Shown: one piece after another, positions 4,285 through 24,541 of the stretch
How positions within the stretch are numbered: the first letter of the stretch is position 1
Layout of the letters: each line of letters opens with the position of its first letter
Assembly (NCBI GenBank): GCA_028684095.1
Contig: JAQUGQ010000015.1
Coordinates: forward strand, 1-33,970
DNA length: 33,970 nt
Reading direction: 5' to 3'
Source: Clostridia bacterium
GTDB taxonomy: Bacteria; Bacillota; Clostridia; TANB77; CAG-465
Program-made: the position numbers and the translations under genes
The notes under the pieces: generated by a model
Database searches by the model: none
Told to the model about the DNA's origin: nothing
What the model saw: the letters and a program-made list of their open reading frames with translations, nothing else

Positions 4285-7200
4285 ATTGAAAATCAGTGCT
4301 TTTGGACCATATAAAAATGAAGTAGATATAGATTTTAATAAATTAGGAAATAATGGTATTTTTTTAATAACAGGAGATACTGGTTCTGGAAAAACAACTA
4401 TTTTTGATGCTATTTGTTTTGCACTTTTTGGTGAAGTTAGTGGAAGTAATAGAACCTTAGATTCATTACGTAGTGATTTTGCTACATTTGAAGTAAAAAC
4501 TTTTGTTGAATTGAAATTTTCTCACAAGAACAAAAACTATAAAATTATAAGGTATCCGAAATATTTAAAGCAAAAAAAGAATGGCATAGGTACAACCCCA
4601 AGCATTGCAGAAGCATCTCTAATATTTGACGATAAGATAATAACTGGTTTTAAAGAAGTAACTGAAGTAGTAATAGAAATACTTGGAATTAACGTTAAGC
4701 AATTTAAACAAATAGCAATGCTTGCTCAAGGTGAATTTCTACAATTGTTATTTGCTGATGCTAATGAAAGATCAGAAATATTTAGGAAAATATTTGAAAC
4801 TAATGTGTTCTACAATATATCAGATAAATTAAGAATAAGAACAAACCAAGCTAAGAGCATATTAGATGATAAAAAACTAGAATTAGATATACATATAAAA
4901 AATATTCAATGGGAGAAAGAACCAAATACAAATTTAGAAATTTTAGAGCTTTTAGAAACATTAAATAAATTGATTGAAGATGATAAAGTAAAAGAAATAG
5001 AATATAAAAAAGAAAAAAATGAATATCAAAACAAATTGGATAATGTTAAAAAAGAATTAGATACTTCAGAATATATTAATAAAAATATTGACGAACTTGA
5101 ATTAAATAAAATTAAGTTTGAGGCAATGTTAGAAGTAAAACAAAAAAACGAAGAAGATATAGTTACAATTAATAATAATAGGATAGCGCTAGAAAAAATA
5201 AATCCTATCAAAAATGATATACAAAAAATGAAAATAGAAATTGTAAATGAAGAAAATAATATAAATAATATAGATGCTATAATTAAAAATGATAATAAAC
5301 AACTAGATATTTTAAAAGTTAAATATGACAGCTTGGGACAAAAAGAAAATGAATTAAAAAGCTATCATTCAACTATTAGCAAATTGAGTGAAAAGTTACC
5401 ACTTTATGATGAAACTGATCAGTTGAATAAAGAAATAATAGAAACAGAATACAATTTAGAAAAAACAACTACTGAACATAGTAATATAATAGAAAAAAAT
5501 ATTAAATTAGAAATAGTAATAGAAAATAAAATAAAGTTATTAAATCAAAGTAGTAATACTCAATCTAGTATTCAATTATTAGTAAAAGAACAAGATGACA
5601 TATTAAAACAAATAGGCATATATAATCAGGTAGTTAAAGAAATCAAAGAAGTAAAAGAATTAGAAAATAATTGTAAAAAGAAAAGAGAACAATTTGTAAT
5701 TAAACAGAAAGAATATGATATTATTCAAAACAAATACAATGAGTTAGAAATGAAATTTCTAACTGGTCAAGCAGGTACGTTTGCAAGTAAGTTAGTGTTT
5801 GGATCTCCTTGTTTAGTATGTGGTAGTATAGATCATCCAAGTCCAGCTAAAATAACTGGAGATGTAATAACAAAAGAAGAGTTAGATGAAACAAAAACAA
5901 ACAAAGAAAAATCATATAATGAGTTATTAGACTTTACTTCAGTTATAAAAACTTCTGATTTGACAATAGCTTTTAAAAAAGAAAAAATTTGTAAAGACAC
6001 TAATTTAAATGATGAAATTAATGTTATTGAAAGTAAAGTTTGTGAATTACTAGTTGAATTAAAACAAAATATTGATTATAAACATAAAAATATTTTAGAT
6101 AAAAAGAAGTTTTTGGAATCTTTGGAAATCATAGAAAATGAATTGAAAACAAACAAAGAGACAATAGAAGAAAACAAGAAAAAAATAAAACAGTACGAAG
6201 AATTAATTACAACAATGAGAAGTGAACTATATAGCAAAAAAGGAGAACTTTTAAACTTAATTAAAAACTTACCAAAAGAGTATTTAACTAAAATAGATTT
6301 AGAAATAAACATTAAAAGTATTACTGCTAAAAGTAGTTTGTTAGAACAAGATATAAGTGATATAAAAAACAAATATAATGAAATATGTGTTAGTATAGAA
6401 AAGAATCAAGTTCTATTAAAAAAGGTTGAAGAAATATTATTAGATAAGCGAATTCAATATATACAATTAGAAGTTCAATATAAGGATGCATATACTCAGA
6501 TAGGTTTTACTAGTGAAGAAGATTATTTTAACACTTTAATATCAAGAGATGATTTAAAATTCTTAGAAGAAAAAGTAAATAATTATCAGATGGAATTTAA
6601 AATGGTAGAAGAAAAAATTAATAGGTTGTTAATTGATACAAAAGGTAAAGTTAAGATTGATACAGCTGATTTTGTTAATAGAAAAATTAAAATTGAATTT
6701 AATCTAGATAGATTAGAAATAATATTTAAAGAATTAAATTTGAGATTACAAATCAATACAGATAATTATATAAAAATTAAATTACTTTATTTAAAGATAA
6801 AAGATATGATAGATAATTATTTGTTATACAAAGATTTGTCAGATACAGCTAATGGAACAATATCAGGAAAACAAAAAATCGTTTTCGAACAATTTGTACA
6901 AGCATCATATTTAAATATAGTAATTGCAGCTTCAAATAAAAGGTTAATACCAATGACAAGTAATAGATATTTGCTAACTAGAAAAGAAATTTCAGATAAA
7001 ATTTCAGATAAATTAGGTTTAGAACTTGAGATTATGGATAATTATACAGGTAAGATACGAAACATCAAATCTTTATCAGGTGGTGAATCATTTAAAGCTG
7101 CTCTTTCACTTGCTTTAGGCCTTTCAGATACTATTCAAAATTATGCTGGTGGTATAGTTGTAGATAATATGTTTATAGATGAAGGTTTTGGTTCATTAGA

Positions 7201-10221: not shown

Positions 10222-11301
10222 ATGTTAAAGGTTTTTGAAGCTTTTTCGGGTGTAGGTGCTCAAAAGATGGCACTTAGAAATTTAAACGTTGAACATGAAA
10301 TAATTGCTACTTCTGATATAGACCCTGTTGCAATAAAAGCATATGCTTACATACATGATCCAGAATATATGAGTAGTAGTTTAAATATAGATATTAATAT
10401 TGCAAAAAAATATTTAATTGATTTAAATATAATTTCTAATGAAAAAGTAGATAGAACTAAGAACAATGACATAATAGAATTGTATAAAGCCTGTATATGT
10501 TCTAAAAATTTAGGAGATATAACTAAAATAGATATAAATAATATACCAGACCATGATCTTTTTACTTATTCATTTCCATGTCAAGATATATCATCTGTAG
10601 GAAAACTAAAAGGGTTACAAGAAAATAGTGGGACTAGAAGTTCATTATTATGGGAGTGTAAGAGAATAATAGAAAGTAAAAAACCGAAATTTTTATTGTT
10701 AGAAAATGTACAAAACTTAGTAAGAGGTAAAAATAAAGATTCTTTTGAACAGTGGTTAGAATATTTAAATGATATAGGTTATAAAAATACGTGGAAAATT
10801 TTAGATAGCAAAAACTTTGGAATACCTCAAAGAAGGCAAAGAGTTTTTGTTGTTTCTAAATTAGAAGAAGAGAATTATTTAGAAATATTTAATAAAAAAA
10901 TTGAGATGAAAAGTATATATGATATTTTAGATAAGTCCAATGAAACTTATTATACTTATACTAATAAAATTGATGTTGATATAAATCATGGAGAATATAA
11001 GTTTTTTGATGATAGGGATTGGAAAATGAATGGAATAATAGTAAATGATATTTGTTCAACACAAAGAGCAGGAAGAAGCGGATTGAAATGTATTCGAAAT
11101 GAAAATGGAGAATTACAGGTTAGAAAATTGTCAGATTTAGAATGTTGGAGACTTATGGGATTTTCTGATGTTGACTACAATAATTTAAAAAAAGTTAATT
11201 TTCCATCTACAAGCATACTAAAACTATGTGGTAATTCGATAGTTGTAAATGTTTTAGAAGGTATATTTGAAAATATGTTAAAGGAGAATACATATGATTA
11301 A
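10222..11301 (+). CDS. DNA (cytosine-5) methyltransferase M1
   Basis: The 359-residue enzyme would transfer a methyl group from SAM to cytosine C5 within the system's recognition site. Motif I is FEAFSGVGAQ (residues 5-14), motif IV has the catalytic cysteine in SFPCQDIS near residue 120, motif VI is LLENV, motif VIII is PQRRQRVFVV, and motif X contains LCGNSIVVNVL near the end. All are intact. It overlaps the second methyltransferase by 8 bases. Two C5-methyltransferases with one endonuclease suggest an asymmetric recognition site, each enzyme protecting one strand. AGAGGTG precedes the start. Confidence 0.92.
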   Translation: MLKVFEAFSGVGAQKMALRNLNVEHEIIATSDIDPVAIKAYAYIHDPEYMSSSLNIDINIAKKYLIDLNIISNEKVDRTKNNDIIELYKACICSKNLGDITKIDINNIPDHDLFTYSFPCQDISSVGKLKGLQENSGTRSSLLWECKRIIESKKPKFLLLENVQNLVRGKNKDSFEQWLEYLNDIGYKNTWKILDSKNFGIPQRRQRVFVVSKLEEENYLEIFNKKIEMKSIYDILDKSNETYYTYTNKIDVDINHGEYKFFDDRDWKMNGIIVNDICSTQRAGRSGLKCIRNENGELQVRKLSDLECWRLMGFSDVDYNNLKKVNFPSTSILKLCGNSIVVNVLEGIFENMLKENTYD

Positions 11302-12392
11302 TGGGGTTTCGTTGTTTGCAAATGTAGGTATAGCAGAGATATATTTGAAGAAATGTGGAATAGATATAGTAGTTGCAAATGAATTAATAGAAAAAAGAGC
11401 AGAATTTTATAAAAATATTTATCCTGATTGCGAAATGATATGTGGAGATATAAATGATAAGATGAATGAGATTATATATAAGGCTAAAGAAAAAAAATGT
11501 AAATTTTTAATGGCTACACCTCCATGTCAGCGGAATGAGTGTGGCGGGTAAACGCGATTATAATGATCCGAGGAATTTGCTAATATTTAATGTTATAGAG
11601 GCAATTGAAAAAATAGACCCAGATTATGTTTTAATAGAAAATGTACCACAATTATTAAATATGAAAGTTAATTTAGATAATGAACATTTGACTGTTGAAG
11701 AGCTTATTTACAGAAAATTTTCTCACAAATATAATATTAATAGTAATAAAATAATAAATGCAGAAGAATATGGAGTTCCTCAGAATAGAAAAAGAGCAAT
11801 GATATTAATGAGTAAAAATTCAAAATGGGAATTTCCTAAAAAAGATAAAGTCAAAGTAACTGTAGAAGAAGCAATAGGTGAACTACCTACAGTAGAGGCA
11901 ATAATAAAAGAAAAAGAATATAATAAGTTTTTTAAGGATAATAAACAAAAAATAGAAGAATGTTTAAAAGTTCATAAATGGCACTTTCCTAAAGAGCATA
12001 CATGGAGACATGTTGAAATAATGATGCATACACCTACTGGAAAATCTGCTTTTGAGAATGATATTTATTTTCCTAAAAAGGAAAATGGAGAAAAAGTAAG
12101 AGGGTATAATACTACTTATAAGAGAATGCAATGGGACAGGCCTGCACCTACGATAACAATGGCAAATGGTTCTATATCGTCTCAATGCAATGTTCATCCA
12201 GGAAGAAAGAGAAAGGATGGAACTTATACTGATGCAAGGGCACTTACTATATATGAAATTATGAGACTGTTTACAATTCCAGATGATTGGAATATACCAG
12301 ATTGGGCTAATGATAATTTTATAAGACAGGTAATCGGTGAAGGAGTTCCACCATTATTAATAAAAAAAGTAGTAATAAATAGAGGTGATTAA
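11294..12392 (+). pseudogene. DNA (cytosine-5) methyltransferase M2, frameshifted
   Basis: The frame from 11294 encodes motif I (SLFANVGIAEIYL) and motif IV up to the catalytic TPPCQ (residues 76-80). It then breaks and stops at 11551. The frame from 11535 continues MSVAGKRDYNDP, motif VI LIENV, motif VIII PQNRKRAMILM and motif X IGEGVPPLL, ending at 12392. Removing C11531 would restore CAG-GGA-ATG, i.e. PCQGMSVAGK, and give a 365-residue enzyme. So there is a one-base insertion directly after the active-site motif: either a true mutation, a sequencing error, or possibly frameshifting at the rare CGG codon. An AAGGAGA site precedes the start. It overlaps M1 by 8 bases, and its stop overlaps the start region of the endonuclease. 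Confidence 0.85.
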
Positions 12393-18820: not shown

Positions 18821-18862
18821 AAAAACTGATATGTGGAAACTTTTCCAAATATCAGTTTTTTC
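18821..18862. terminator. Bidirectional terminator
   Basis: AAAACTGATATGTGGAAA pairs with TTCCAAATATCAGTTTT, followed by TTTTTCT on the + strand and preceded by A-runs for the minus strand. It lies between the convergent small membrane gene and the FGE-like gene. Confidence 0.75.
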
Positions 18863-18909: not shown

Positions 18910-19851
18910 TTAAGGTAGTATTCCACGAAAATGTGTCCAAAAACTTGATATAGATCCAGTATCGAGCATAACAGAGGGGTAACAGATGTCAGTGCTACCA
19001 TAAAGCACCCCGCCGAAGCCTATACTATCGTATACATCATCAGTCCGACTGATATTGCGATAGAACGCGGGATAGTTGTAACTATAATCGTAGAACGAGC
19101 CACCACGACAGGCTGTTCGTTCTGTTCCAAAACTTTCCTGTGTCCATCTCCAGACACAACCAGCGAGACCGTATAACCCACCTACCATGTATTCGGGTTT
19201 TGCTCCGGTTTTTAAGAGCTTGCCTTCTTCGTTGTTGTAGTAATTTCCCAAATGATTTGAGTTTTTTACTACTTCCCAGAAAGTTGCTATTTCCCTGTCG
19301 ATTAAGGATTGGCAGGCATAATCCCAAAGTTCTCCATACTCTATACAGAATTTAATGCCATCTTTAAACGTATCAGCGTATTTCTTTGATTCGCGGACTA
19401 CATCTGTTTTATTGGACGAATCTTCATAACAAATGTTTACCCACGGATCTGCACTAGGCACGAATTTTGCGATTTCTTGTTTGCCTTTATTTCCTTTGGA
19501 TGCGGGGAATGTCGCCATATAAAAGCCACCGTACATCCGGATAAAATCATGAATTGCTTCAAGTTCCGGAGTTACTTCCTCATGGAAGTGTTCTCTGCCA
19601 AATGTATCTTCGTCCAAGTTAAGTCTACCAAAGCTGTTTTCGATTATTTCATCTGATACAGGAACCCAAGTAAAATAGCTTCCGTCAGCTTTGTTTTTAA
19701 TCAAAAACTGGCCTGGTGCGATATCGAAAACTCTTTTGAAGCCCGGAAAAACCGGAATGCCGCTTGCTTCTTTGATTTCGATTTCCTCGCTGTTGTTGAT
19801 AATACCTTCAATTGCAAACTTTTTGTGAGTGATTTTTACTGTTTTCAACAT
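18910..19851 (-). CDS. FGE/C-type-lectin domain protein, DGR-target-like, GC-rich
   Basis: This 313-residue protein has the formylglycine-generating-enzyme/C-type-lectin fold used by DGR variable proteins. Examples are FTWVPVSDE (near 60), GGFYMATFPAS (near 112), VWRWTQES (near 234), and the variable-type segment CRGGSFYDYSYNYPAFYRN ending GFGGVLY (near 248-286). No signal peptide or membrane segment is present. About 29 residues follow where such domains normally end; the DNA there shares GTAGCACTGAC with the 3' end of the pilin-FGE gene, where that TAG is the stop. So the tail probably comes from a frameshift. The gene is visibly richer in GC than all neighbours, implying transfer. An AGGAGG site precedes the ATG. 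Confidence 0.8.
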   Translation of the reverse strand: MLKTVKITHKKFAIEGIINNSEEIEIKEASGIPVFPGFKRVFDIAPGQFLIKNKADGSYFTWVPVSDEIIENSFGRLNLDEDTFGREHFHEEVTPELEAIHDFIRMYGGFYMATFPASKGNKGKQEIAKFVPSADPWVNICYEDSSNKTDVVRESKKYADTFKDGIKFCIEYGELWDYACQSLIDREIATFWEVVKNSNHLGNYYNNEEGKLLKTGAKPEYMVGGLYGLAGCVWRWTQESFGTERTACRGGSFYDYSYNYPAFYRNISRTDDVYDSIGFGGVLYGSTDICYPSVMLDTGSISSFWTHFRGILP

Positions 19852-19939: not shown

Positions 19940-19968
19940 ATTATATCATAAAATTAATCTAATGTCAA
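19940..19968 (-). promoter_or_regulatory. Promoter of the FGE-like gene
   Basis: On the minus strand TTGACA (19963-19968) and TATAAT (19940-19945) are 17 bases apart, with a ~85-base leader to the start codon. The promoter is in AT-rich DNA like the neighbours, while the coding region is not. Confidence 0.8.
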
Positions 19969-20140
19969 TATTTATGTAAACTCACCAGCCATGTCTGATT
20001 TTTAGACTAAAAATTCCGAAATGCTAGGCTTTAATGGAAAGCAATTAATCAAAATTAACAAATCAGTAAAAAAATATTATATAACTACTGAAATGAGAAA
20101 TATATTGTATATAGTTTGTTTAACTAAATTGGAAATAAAT

Positions 20141-20598
20141 AAAGATAAAATTGAATCAAAATATAGTTTTAAACATCTGATTTTAGAAGATAGATATATT
20201 ATTGAAATGTTATACACAAGTAAATTTTCAAAAAACTTTATTTCTACCTTTTTAAATAAAAATAGGAGTACAATATGCCTGATGAAATAAAAGAAAACAA
20301 GGTAATAACTCATTTTCAAGGCGACAGTATAATAGGTCAAAGGGTTGGAAAAAATAATACATTACTTACATTTGCTAATCCAGCAAATCAATTTTTAATA
20401 GTTTTAAGATCAAAGAATAAGACAGCAGATTCGACTGTTAATACGTTAAATATTTTAGAAAATAAAATACCTAATTTAAACGAAATAATGGAAAATATAT
20501 TATTTGATAATGGCCTAGAATTTAGCAAAATAAATGAGATTTTGTTAGTGGATATTATGGATAAATTATTAGAAAGAGTGTGTTGCATTTTTTTCTAA
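20141..20598 (+). pseudogene. IS30-family transposase remnant
   Basis: The first part, in frame from about 20141 to 20290, reads SFKHLILEDRYIIEML and NRSTIC, the N-terminal HTH of IS30 transposases. A different frame from 20275 continues with GDSIIGQRVGKNNTLLTFAN, RSKNKTADSTVNTL and ILFDNGLEFSK, the DDE catalytic core up to the second aspartate (FDNG). The middle of the protein and the C-terminus are missing. So this is an internally deleted, frameshifted and truncated relic. No intact terminal repeats were identified. The gap 19969-20140 holds no other gene that I can support. Confidence 0.75.
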
Positions 20599-22987: not shown

Positions 22988-24292
22988 ATGAAAAAGAAAA
23001 ACGGAATATCTTTAATAGTGTTAGTAATAACAATAATAGTTATAATAATACTAGCAGGAGCAGTGATTTTAAGTTTAGCAAATAATAATCCAATAGAACA
23101 AGCAAATGAAGCATTATTTAAAACAAATGTAGATGAATATAATTCAGAGCTTACTCTGGCTATATCCAATCAATATTTGCAGGATCAATCATTTGATCCA
23201 ACTATATTTGATAAAGAGGTATGGAATGGTGGAACTATAGGAGAAACAATAAAAAAATATATACCAAGTATAACAGTAGCAGATGGATTAAAATTTGAAA
23301 TACAAGATAGTAAGTTGGTATATGTAGGAACAAATGAAACAGAACAAGAATGGTTTACAAGTATGAGTATGACAAGTGAAGAAGAAACAGGACTTGGATT
23401 AGATGTAATAGCAACAGATAATATAACATTTAATGGAGAGGCAGCTGCATATAATAATCCGATAATACCAAAAGGATTTAAAGCAATAAATACAACTGAT
23501 GCAAGTTGGGTTAATCTAAGTACAGATTGGAATACTGGTTTAGTAATAGAAGATACTAGTGGAAATCAATTTGTATGGGTACCAGTAGATGGAACAAATG
23601 TGCCATATGCAAAGTGGTGTACAACTAATATTGCATGGAATCATGCAGATATATCTGATGATACTGTAGTAGGAGTAACTAATGAAGCAGCTCAAGTTAC
23701 AAAGTACGGTGGATTCTATATAGCAAGATATGAAGCAATGTTTGACTTTAATGGTGGAGCTTTAAGAGTAGCAAGTAAACCATCTACAAATAAAACAACT
23801 ACAGACTGGAGAGCAACAAGAACGGAAGCATATAACGGATACTTATGGAACTATATAAATTACACAGATGCTAAATCATATGCAGAAAACATGGATACAC
23901 ATTATGCATATGATACATCTAAAGTAATAACAACATTAGTATCTGGAACTCAGTGGGATACAGTTTTAAAATGGATCCAAAATTCAGGTAAAAGTGTAAT
24001 AGATAGTAGAACTTGGGGAAATTACAGTGATTCAATATTTCCAGCAAACGTAGCAGGATTTGCAAGTTTACAAATATCTGGATTCAGTGAAAACTGGAAA
24101 GCAAATAACATATATAATATAGCTGGAAACACATTAAAATGGACAAGTGAAATATATAGCTCTAGCCGTGTCTTTCGTGGAGGCAGTTTCTTTCATAGTG
24201 GCAGTAGCGGTCCTGCTGCTTACCGCAGCTACGATCCAGTTACGAATGTCCGCAACAATCTAGCCTTCCGTCCCAGTCTTTATATATTGTAG
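22988..24292 (+). CDS. Prepilin-like protein with C-terminal FGE/C-lectin variable domain (DGR target)
   Basis: This 434-residue protein starts like a type IV prepilin: KKKNG then ISLIVLVITIIVIIILAG, with the G-I processing site at residues 6-7 but V instead of the usual E5. A ~110-residue pilin-like region follows, then an FGE/C-type-lectin domain (FVWVPVDG near 197, GGFYIARYEAM near 239, LKWTSEIYSSS near 379). The last ~45 residues (SRVFRGGSFFHSGSSGPAAY to FRPSLYIL) look like a DGR variable region. The DNA there is clearly GC-richer, with AGC, TAC, GAT and AAC codons where template adenines would be mutated. It is probably a surface pilus tip or adhesin. No reverse transcriptase or template repeat is nearby. 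AAGGAG precedes the start. Confidence 0.85.
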   Translation: MKKKNGISLIVLVITIIVIIILAGAVILSLANNNPIEQANEALFKTNVDEYNSELTLAISNQYLQDQSFDPTIFDKEVWNGGTIGETIKKYIPSITVADGLKFEIQDSKLVYVGTNETEQEWFTSMSMTSEEETGLGLDVIATDNITFNGEAAAYNNPIIPKGFKAINTTDASWVNLSTDWNTGLVIEDTSGNQFVWVPVDGTNVPYAKWCTTNIAWNHADISDDTVVGVTNEAAQVTKYGGFYIARYEAMFDFNGGALRVASKPSTNKTTTDWRATRTEAYNGYLWNYINYTDAKSYAENMDTHYAYDTSKVITTLVSGTQWDTVLKWIQNSGKSVIDSRTWGNYSDSIFPANVAGFASLQISGFSENWKANNIYNIAGNTLKWTSEIYSSSRVFRGGSFFHSGSSGPAAYRSYDPVTNVRNNLAFRPSLYIL

Positions 24293-24300
24293 CACTGACC
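24150..24300 (+). repeat. Candidate DGR variable region and flanking 3' element
   Basis: The GC-rich 3' end of the pilin-FGE gene stands out in the AT-rich background. It ends with CTTTATATATTGTAGCACTG, where TAG is the stop. GTAGCACTGAC recurs at the equivalent place of the minus-strand FGE gene (18988-18998). A matching template repeat was not seen in this window. Confidence 0.6.
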
Positions 24301-24392
24301 ACTGAAAATACACTGGCAAGGGCACAATAGTAATTTGAGTAGAGATAGAATAAATATGTAACAAATCAAGATAAAATAATAGAATGGACGGG

Positions 24393-24541
24393 TTTCAAAT
24401 AAAGTAACGCTTCATGTGAAGCCCGCATAGAAATTTTTTGGTAGTATGCCAAAAAAATTCTAGCGGGATACCCCTAGCGGGATACCCCTAGCGGGATACC
24501 CCTAGCGGGGTAGCTAACGGTAATTTTTTTACCGTAGCTAC
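24393..24541 (+). repeat. Structured region with 14-bp tandem repeats
   Basis: Three tandem copies of TAGCGGGATACCCC (24461-24474, 24475-24488, 24489-24502) are followed by a partial TAGCGGGG. They lie between an AATTTTTTGG/CCAAAAAAATT hairpin (24432-24459) and a GTAGCTAACGGTA/TACCGTAGCTAC hairpin (24510-24541). A GCTTCA/TGAAGC stem and CGGGTTTC/GAAGCCCG pairing lie just before (24390-24426). The block sits between the DGR-type gene and the RsgA-like gene. It could be terminator structure, DGR target structure or a regulatory leader. Confidence 0.7.

Follow-up and report, generated by a model that had tools for sequence, protein, structure and literature searches.

The window analyzed here is a stretch of 33,970 nucleotides from a Clostridia bacterium (contig JAQUGQ010000015.1). 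It carries two genes, gene B and a pilin-FGE gene, whose 3′ end regions share an 11-mer, GTAGCACTGAC, at positions 18988–18998 (-) and 24289–24299 (+). The TAG at position 24290 is the stop codon of the pilin-FGE open reading frame. In B the 11-mer is read GGT AGC ACT GAC and the open reading frame stays open to residue 313. The question is what this shared sequence represents, and how bases that terminate one gene come to be translated in the other. The positions confirm the preliminary description, which had noted the common 11-mer with its TAG as the pilin-FGE stop and the same bases one frame off in B, adding about 29 residues (residues 285–313). No copies of the 11-mer are expected in shuffled sequences, and the whole 1.46-Mb genome has no exact copy besides these two.

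Table 1. Features of gene B and of the pilin-FGE gene in the window.
Feature	Position	Strand	Remarks
Gene B, FGE-like DGR-type target protein	18910..19851	-	Complete ORF, 313 aa, compositionally foreign
Variable-region core of B	19024..19098	-	Codons 252–276; codon-position shift vs L040
Conserved VR end of B	19000..19023	-	IGFGGVLY, ...CTTTAT; corresponds to where TR/VR homology ends in intact DGRs
C-terminal extension of B	18913..18999	-	Residues 285–313, 29 aa; first 13 (GSTDICYPxMxD) largely common with L040
Post-VR tag of B, TAGCACTGACATCTGTTACC	18978..18997	-	+1 frame, read ..GSTDICYP
Sigma-70-type promoter upstream of B	19940..19968	-	TTGACA-17-TATAAT, perfect consensus, 12/12 matches
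Leader inverted repeat of B, TTTCGGGGGCATAAGCCTCCGAAA	19882..19905	-	Read from sequence
Terminator-like inverted repeat downstream of B	18821..18860	-	19-nt arms, 95% complementary
Pilin-FGE gene	22988..24292	+	VR-like 3′ end about 24176–24289
Post-VR tag of pilin-FGE gene, TAGCACTGACCACTG	24290..24304	+	TAG is in-frame stop

Gene B and its surroundings

Gene B had been proposed to be unlike its surroundings in composition, and it is indeed an outlier. Its GC content is 0.409 and its GC3 is 0.39, compared with a mean GC of 0.260 (sd 0.022) and a mean GC3 of 0.15 (sd 0.04, maximum 0.27) in the 19 other genes of the window. Directly upstream of B, at positions 20021–20598 (+), there are two overlapping open reading frames that resemble remnants of an IS30-type transposase; an HTH_38 match (E = 0.0003) is below the cut-off and the second open reading frame was judged by eye. 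The remnant is a possible trace of the arrival of B, and composition and IS remnant together suggest that B arrived horizontally. Phage, plasmid and IMG/VR searches with the B protein or profile gave no matches, and an IMG/VR pattern search for the tag region of B found none.

The B protein displays a Pfam FGE-sulfatase match with an E-value of 0.017 (the best among its relatives is 3e-7). Its profile matches to SUMF2 (E = 0.0014) and to TvpA (E = 0.46) are weak. An AlphaFold model made from 12 sequences has a pLDDT of 37.5 and is unusable. An FGE-like fold is weakly predicted for B.

The leader of B has an inverted repeat that resembles a repeat before the homologous gene in L040 (L040 positions 5952–5976), with stem bases changed, which suggests a 5′ UTR hairpin conserved between the two genes. 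Rfam shows no match within the window.

A sequence tag at the end of DGR targets

The consensus of the tag that follows the variable repeat (VR) is the 15-mer TAGCACTGACCACTG, a longer form of the 11-mer, and it was searched in 385 genomes of the order. There are 31 exact matches in 27 of these genomes and 0 matches of the reversed control pattern. All of the places fetched (30/30) are at the ends of VR-like coding regions. The TAG is the in-frame stop codon in 27 of the 30, and in two (L186 and L187) the gene is disrupted. The exact 15-mer in L202 is read one frame off, where the protein ends ...GSTDH (stop), and L122 has a tag variant, TAGGACTG, that is also off-frame. An off-frame tag in these two further target lineages is as expected of a DNA element. 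In L197 and L200 the tag terminates targets in which an FGE VR pattern is not evident. There are also 29 matches of the 15-mer in IMG/VR, 0 of them at a VR end.

As judged by this distribution, the tag characterizes one class of DGRs and the 11-mer is not a chance match. The papers searched contain no report of the 15-mer and none links DGRs with type IV pilins; the post-VR tag is apparently undescribed in this literature.

Intact DGRs and the reverse transcriptase clade

DGR loci were taken as stretches around reverse transcriptases (RTs) in genomes of the same order, picked by score and ORF size and not randomly, and were searched for pairs of template (TR) and VR that are mismatched at template adenines. 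The order has many intact DGRs, and the tag class includes e.g. L119, L120, L121, L157, L158, L162, L163 and L164. The best 100-nt TR/VR windows of these eight show 0–1 non-adenine mismatches (L120: 6) and 8–27 adenine mismatches. L121 has a pilin-FGE target (FGE, E = 2e-8), bAvd (E = 3e-14), an RT (RVT_1, E = 1e-20) and a TR; its TR/VR pair displays 0 non-adenine and 12 adenine mismatches.

In the tag class the homology ends with CTTTA(T) in the VR and CTCTAA in the TR. The sequence TAGCACTGAVCACTG, or a close variant, is found after the VR alone, starting 3–10 nt beyond the TR/VR homology. Since it follows the VR and not the template, the tag is target-side only. Absence of the 11-mer from any DGR template or initiation sequence had been named as evidence against the preliminary reading; the tag is absent from templates, yet it is located immediately 3′ of the variable repeat.

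In the RT tree the tag is confined to one clade (support 98/97). About 13 of the 18 loci inside the clade carry it, where the doubtful L112 and L115 are not counted as tag-bearing, and 0 of the 11 RTs outside the clade do so. The exceptions inside are L115 and L118, whose VRs have no clear tag, and L112, which has a weak variant; no VR was found in L111 and L117. The RT of the congener G001 (L170) shows no TR/VR pair and is not treated as a DGR.

Two other features of these loci were seen. A conserved stretch, ..TATATTTTAAGGAATATATACAG..TATTAGATATTAAAGAGGTTTATTCCTTCC.., is present about 10–80 nt 3′ of the TR in L119, L121, L123, L145 and similar loci; the template RNA probably has a structured portion here. 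L163 (G247:C12) and L187 have CGAGGTCGG in both TR and VR, and the target frame is broken by a stop codon in the VR. The template at these loci may carry the same frame-breaking change.

The variable region of B and its homologues

The closest homologue of B is in L040/L066 (69% aa identity), which are of the same GTDB family but another genus. More distant relatives form a 301-aa family in f3 genomes, with 30–33% identity. The 301-aa homologues in L157 and L158 (G165 and G021) are targets in intact DGRs, where the TR/VR pairs show 0 non-adenine and 17–18 adenine mismatches. The target end is CTTTATATTAAGTAGCACTGACCACTG in L158 and is the same in L157 with ATCAAG.

Nucleotide differences between B and L040 at codon positions 1/2/3 number 13/10/9 in the VR core and 47/31/111 in the body of the gene (Fisher p = 0.0018). 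This pattern is consistent with that expected from diversified AAC/AAT template codons. A template for the VR end of B was not found in the 385 genomes of the order, and neither the genome of B nor that of its 69%-identical homologue shows a matching one. The TR of G020 likewise does not match the B gene of that genome, and the DGR of G020 belongs to a different class that lacks the tag. As judged by descent and codon pattern, B is a DGR-type target, and it appears to have once been diversified by a DGR of the tag class.

Read-through of the tag in B

The spacing from CTTTAT to TAG is 2 nt in B and L040 (CTTTATGGTAGCACTGACATCTGTTACC; CTTTAT-GG-TAG) as against 6 nt in relatives (CTTTAT-ATTAAG-TAG). 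The stop codon is out of frame in B and L040 due to this net 4-nt difference. Read-through is derived, since the more distant relatives (30–33% identity) retain the in-frame stop, and it is old, since it is common to B and L040. Past GSTDICYPxMxD, L040 stops and B is 16 residues longer, with nothing conserved after D297. Conservation of the extension in distant homologues had been named as evidence against a frameshift; this is the case in L040/L066 for the first 13 of the 29 residues and is not the case for the remainder.

A different explanation is that GSTDICYP is a mere conserved protein segment and that B has the 11-mer in common with the pilin-FGE end by coding coincidence. The conserved extension in L040 and the presence of just two exact 11-mers in the genome would fit with this. 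However the match is within a few bases of the tag site of more than 30 other targets, and B's TAGCACTGACATCTGTTACC is identical at 17 of 20 positions, ungapped, to TAGCACTGACCACTGTTAGC, which follows the VR of the intact DGR L121. In addition, a comparison of B with L040 shows that CTTTATGGTAGCACTGACATCTGTTAC has nine consecutive codons (CTT..TAC) with no third-position change, whereas 111 of the 244 body codons are changed. Retention of the extension and of the tag DNA at synonymous sites in the homologue, which also speaks against a coincidence, is partly seen. A coding coincidence is thus improbable.

It is also quite improbable that B has the decaying end of a pseudogene, where a recent frameshift in a single strain removed the normal stop codon. 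The net 4-nt difference from relatives, the unconserved residues after D297 and the lack of a detectable DGR in the genome are in line with decay, but the open reading frame, promoter and terminator-like repeat of B are intact. The preliminary description had the end of B as apparently frameshifted. A recent or damaging frameshift is not supported, since in L040/L066 a 69%-identical protein from another genus is read in this frame too and retains GSTDICYPxMxD. On this comparison the frame change in B is old and fixed and is not a fresh lesion.

Recent gene conversion or mis-homing that copied the tag of B from the neighbouring pilin-FGE gene is highly improbable: the two tags are about 5.3 kb apart and their 11-mers are identical, but the bases after the 11-mer are ATCTGTTACC in B and CACTGAAAAT in the pilin tags of the genome, and since L040 is identical to B at these bases, the tag of B predates the arrangement in the window.

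DGR targets in the genome of the window

The genome of the window (G000) has about 15 distinct VR-like ends of paralogous pilin-FGE genes, and most of these then carry related post-VR sequences, e.g. TAGTACTGACCACTGAAACTATATTAGAAAAGGTACAA. In the VR core of these genes the variation at codon positions 1/2/3 is 0.38, 0.31 and 0.29; at the ends most of the variation is at position 3. The draft genome, which is 96.7% complete, shows no RVT_1 match in a search that recovers DGR RTs in relatives, nor was the TR-end pattern found in it. The DGR of this genome is either in the missing part of the draft or has been lost.

B is therefore an orphan target, with no matching template and no detectable RT in its genome. 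The earlier suggestion that B and the pilin-FGE gene are served by, or descended from, one system is upheld in its second form, descent from targets that belonged to one type of system, as both are DGR-type targets with the class-hallmark tag. That they are served by one system is not demonstrable here because the genome has no detectable RT or template end.

Downstream of the pilin-FGE gene, at positions 24460–24512 (+), CTAGCGGGATACCC is present three times in tandem.

Proposed mechanism and comparison with known systems

The probable explanation of the locus is that B is an orphan, horizontally acquired DGR target and that the target-side tag of one DGR clade begins with the shared 11-mer, the stop codon in the tag being out of frame in B by a net 4 nt. 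The 3′ part of B would represent a variable region within an FGE-like fold. The tag is positioned immediately behind the variable repeat in one DGR clade of this clostridial order and probably marks the target for retrohoming, where BPP-1 has a stem-loop; in most targets it additionally supplies the stop codon. In the B/L040 lineage the interval from the last TR/VR homology to the tag has lost a net 4 nt, which put the stop codon off-frame, and the protein now reads through the tag. We infer that the tag is recognized by the DGR machinery, as a linear element used by the RT clade for recognition or priming. Its retention behind targets without the FGE pattern (L197, L200) and where the frame slips (B/L040, L202, L122) argues for linear recognition. 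Evenly balanced, in our estimate, is the broader proposal that TAGCACTGACCACTG acts as a portable, sequence-specific address for RT complexes, one that would replace the stem-loop, serve many and even unrelated targets in any frame, and have been absorbed into the protein in B.

The Bordetella phage BPP-1 has a 24-bp stem-loop behind the VR that contains the TAG stop codon and is required for efficient retrohoming; its target site consists of the IMH plus a downstream hairpin/cruciform (PMC3240598). The BPP-1 retrohoming system has been reconstituted (PMC12875486). The tag class is similar in that it also has a target-side DNA element directly 3′ of the VR, with no template copy and with a TAG stop codon at this place. 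Unlike the BPP-1 element, the tag is a conserved linear sequence and not a stem-loop, and it is off-frame in two lineages besides that of B. An element of the BPP-1 type was defined as a GC-rich inverted repeat with a 7–10 bp stem and a 4-nt loop shortly downstream of the VR. Stem-loops are not in excess in 30 tag loci, where the mean best perfect stem is 4.37 bp compared with 4.33 bp in shuffles, and the best perfect stem in 23 tag-bearing ends is 5 bp, short of the 7–10 bp of the BPP-1 type. A hairpin role for the tag was dropped; B can form a 7-pair stem that includes one G-T pair, but this stem is not conserved. The difference between CTTTA in the VR and CTCTAA in the TR of the tag class corresponds to that between IMH and IMH* of BPP-1, the homology being by position only.

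TvpA of Treponema denticola and other FGE-fold DGR variable proteins have an FGE-like domain whose variable region is C-terminal, as is predicted for B. However B and its 301-aa relatives have no lipoprotein signal (by eye), and B differs from TvpA-type proteins in its C-terminal extension and in having no linked RT. The DGR operons of the order (pilin-FGE or 301-aa FGE target, bAvd, RT and TR) have in common with B a homologous target, the CTTTAT VR end and the tag. The tag gives an in-frame stop codon in these operons, whereas B is unlinked to RT and TR and reads through it.

Significance and other observations

Target finding by DGRs is understood mainly from one phage element, which needs a stem-loop behind the variable repeat. 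A short linear tag of one RT clade that is frame-independent and is present behind many targets would, if true, represent a second kind of target mark. With such an address one DGR could act on many, even unrelated, target proteins. Such a tag would open target finding to direct experiment and would help to detect orphan targets where a genome lacks the RT, and it could be used in laboratory hosts to direct diversification to genes of choice.

Elsewhere in the window, at positions 11294–12392 (+), a DNA cytosine methyltransferase is apparently split into two overlapping open reading frames, with a frame change near position 11530 (..ATPPCQR / ..MSVAGKRDYND). Next to it are a second methyltransferase and what may be a restriction gene.
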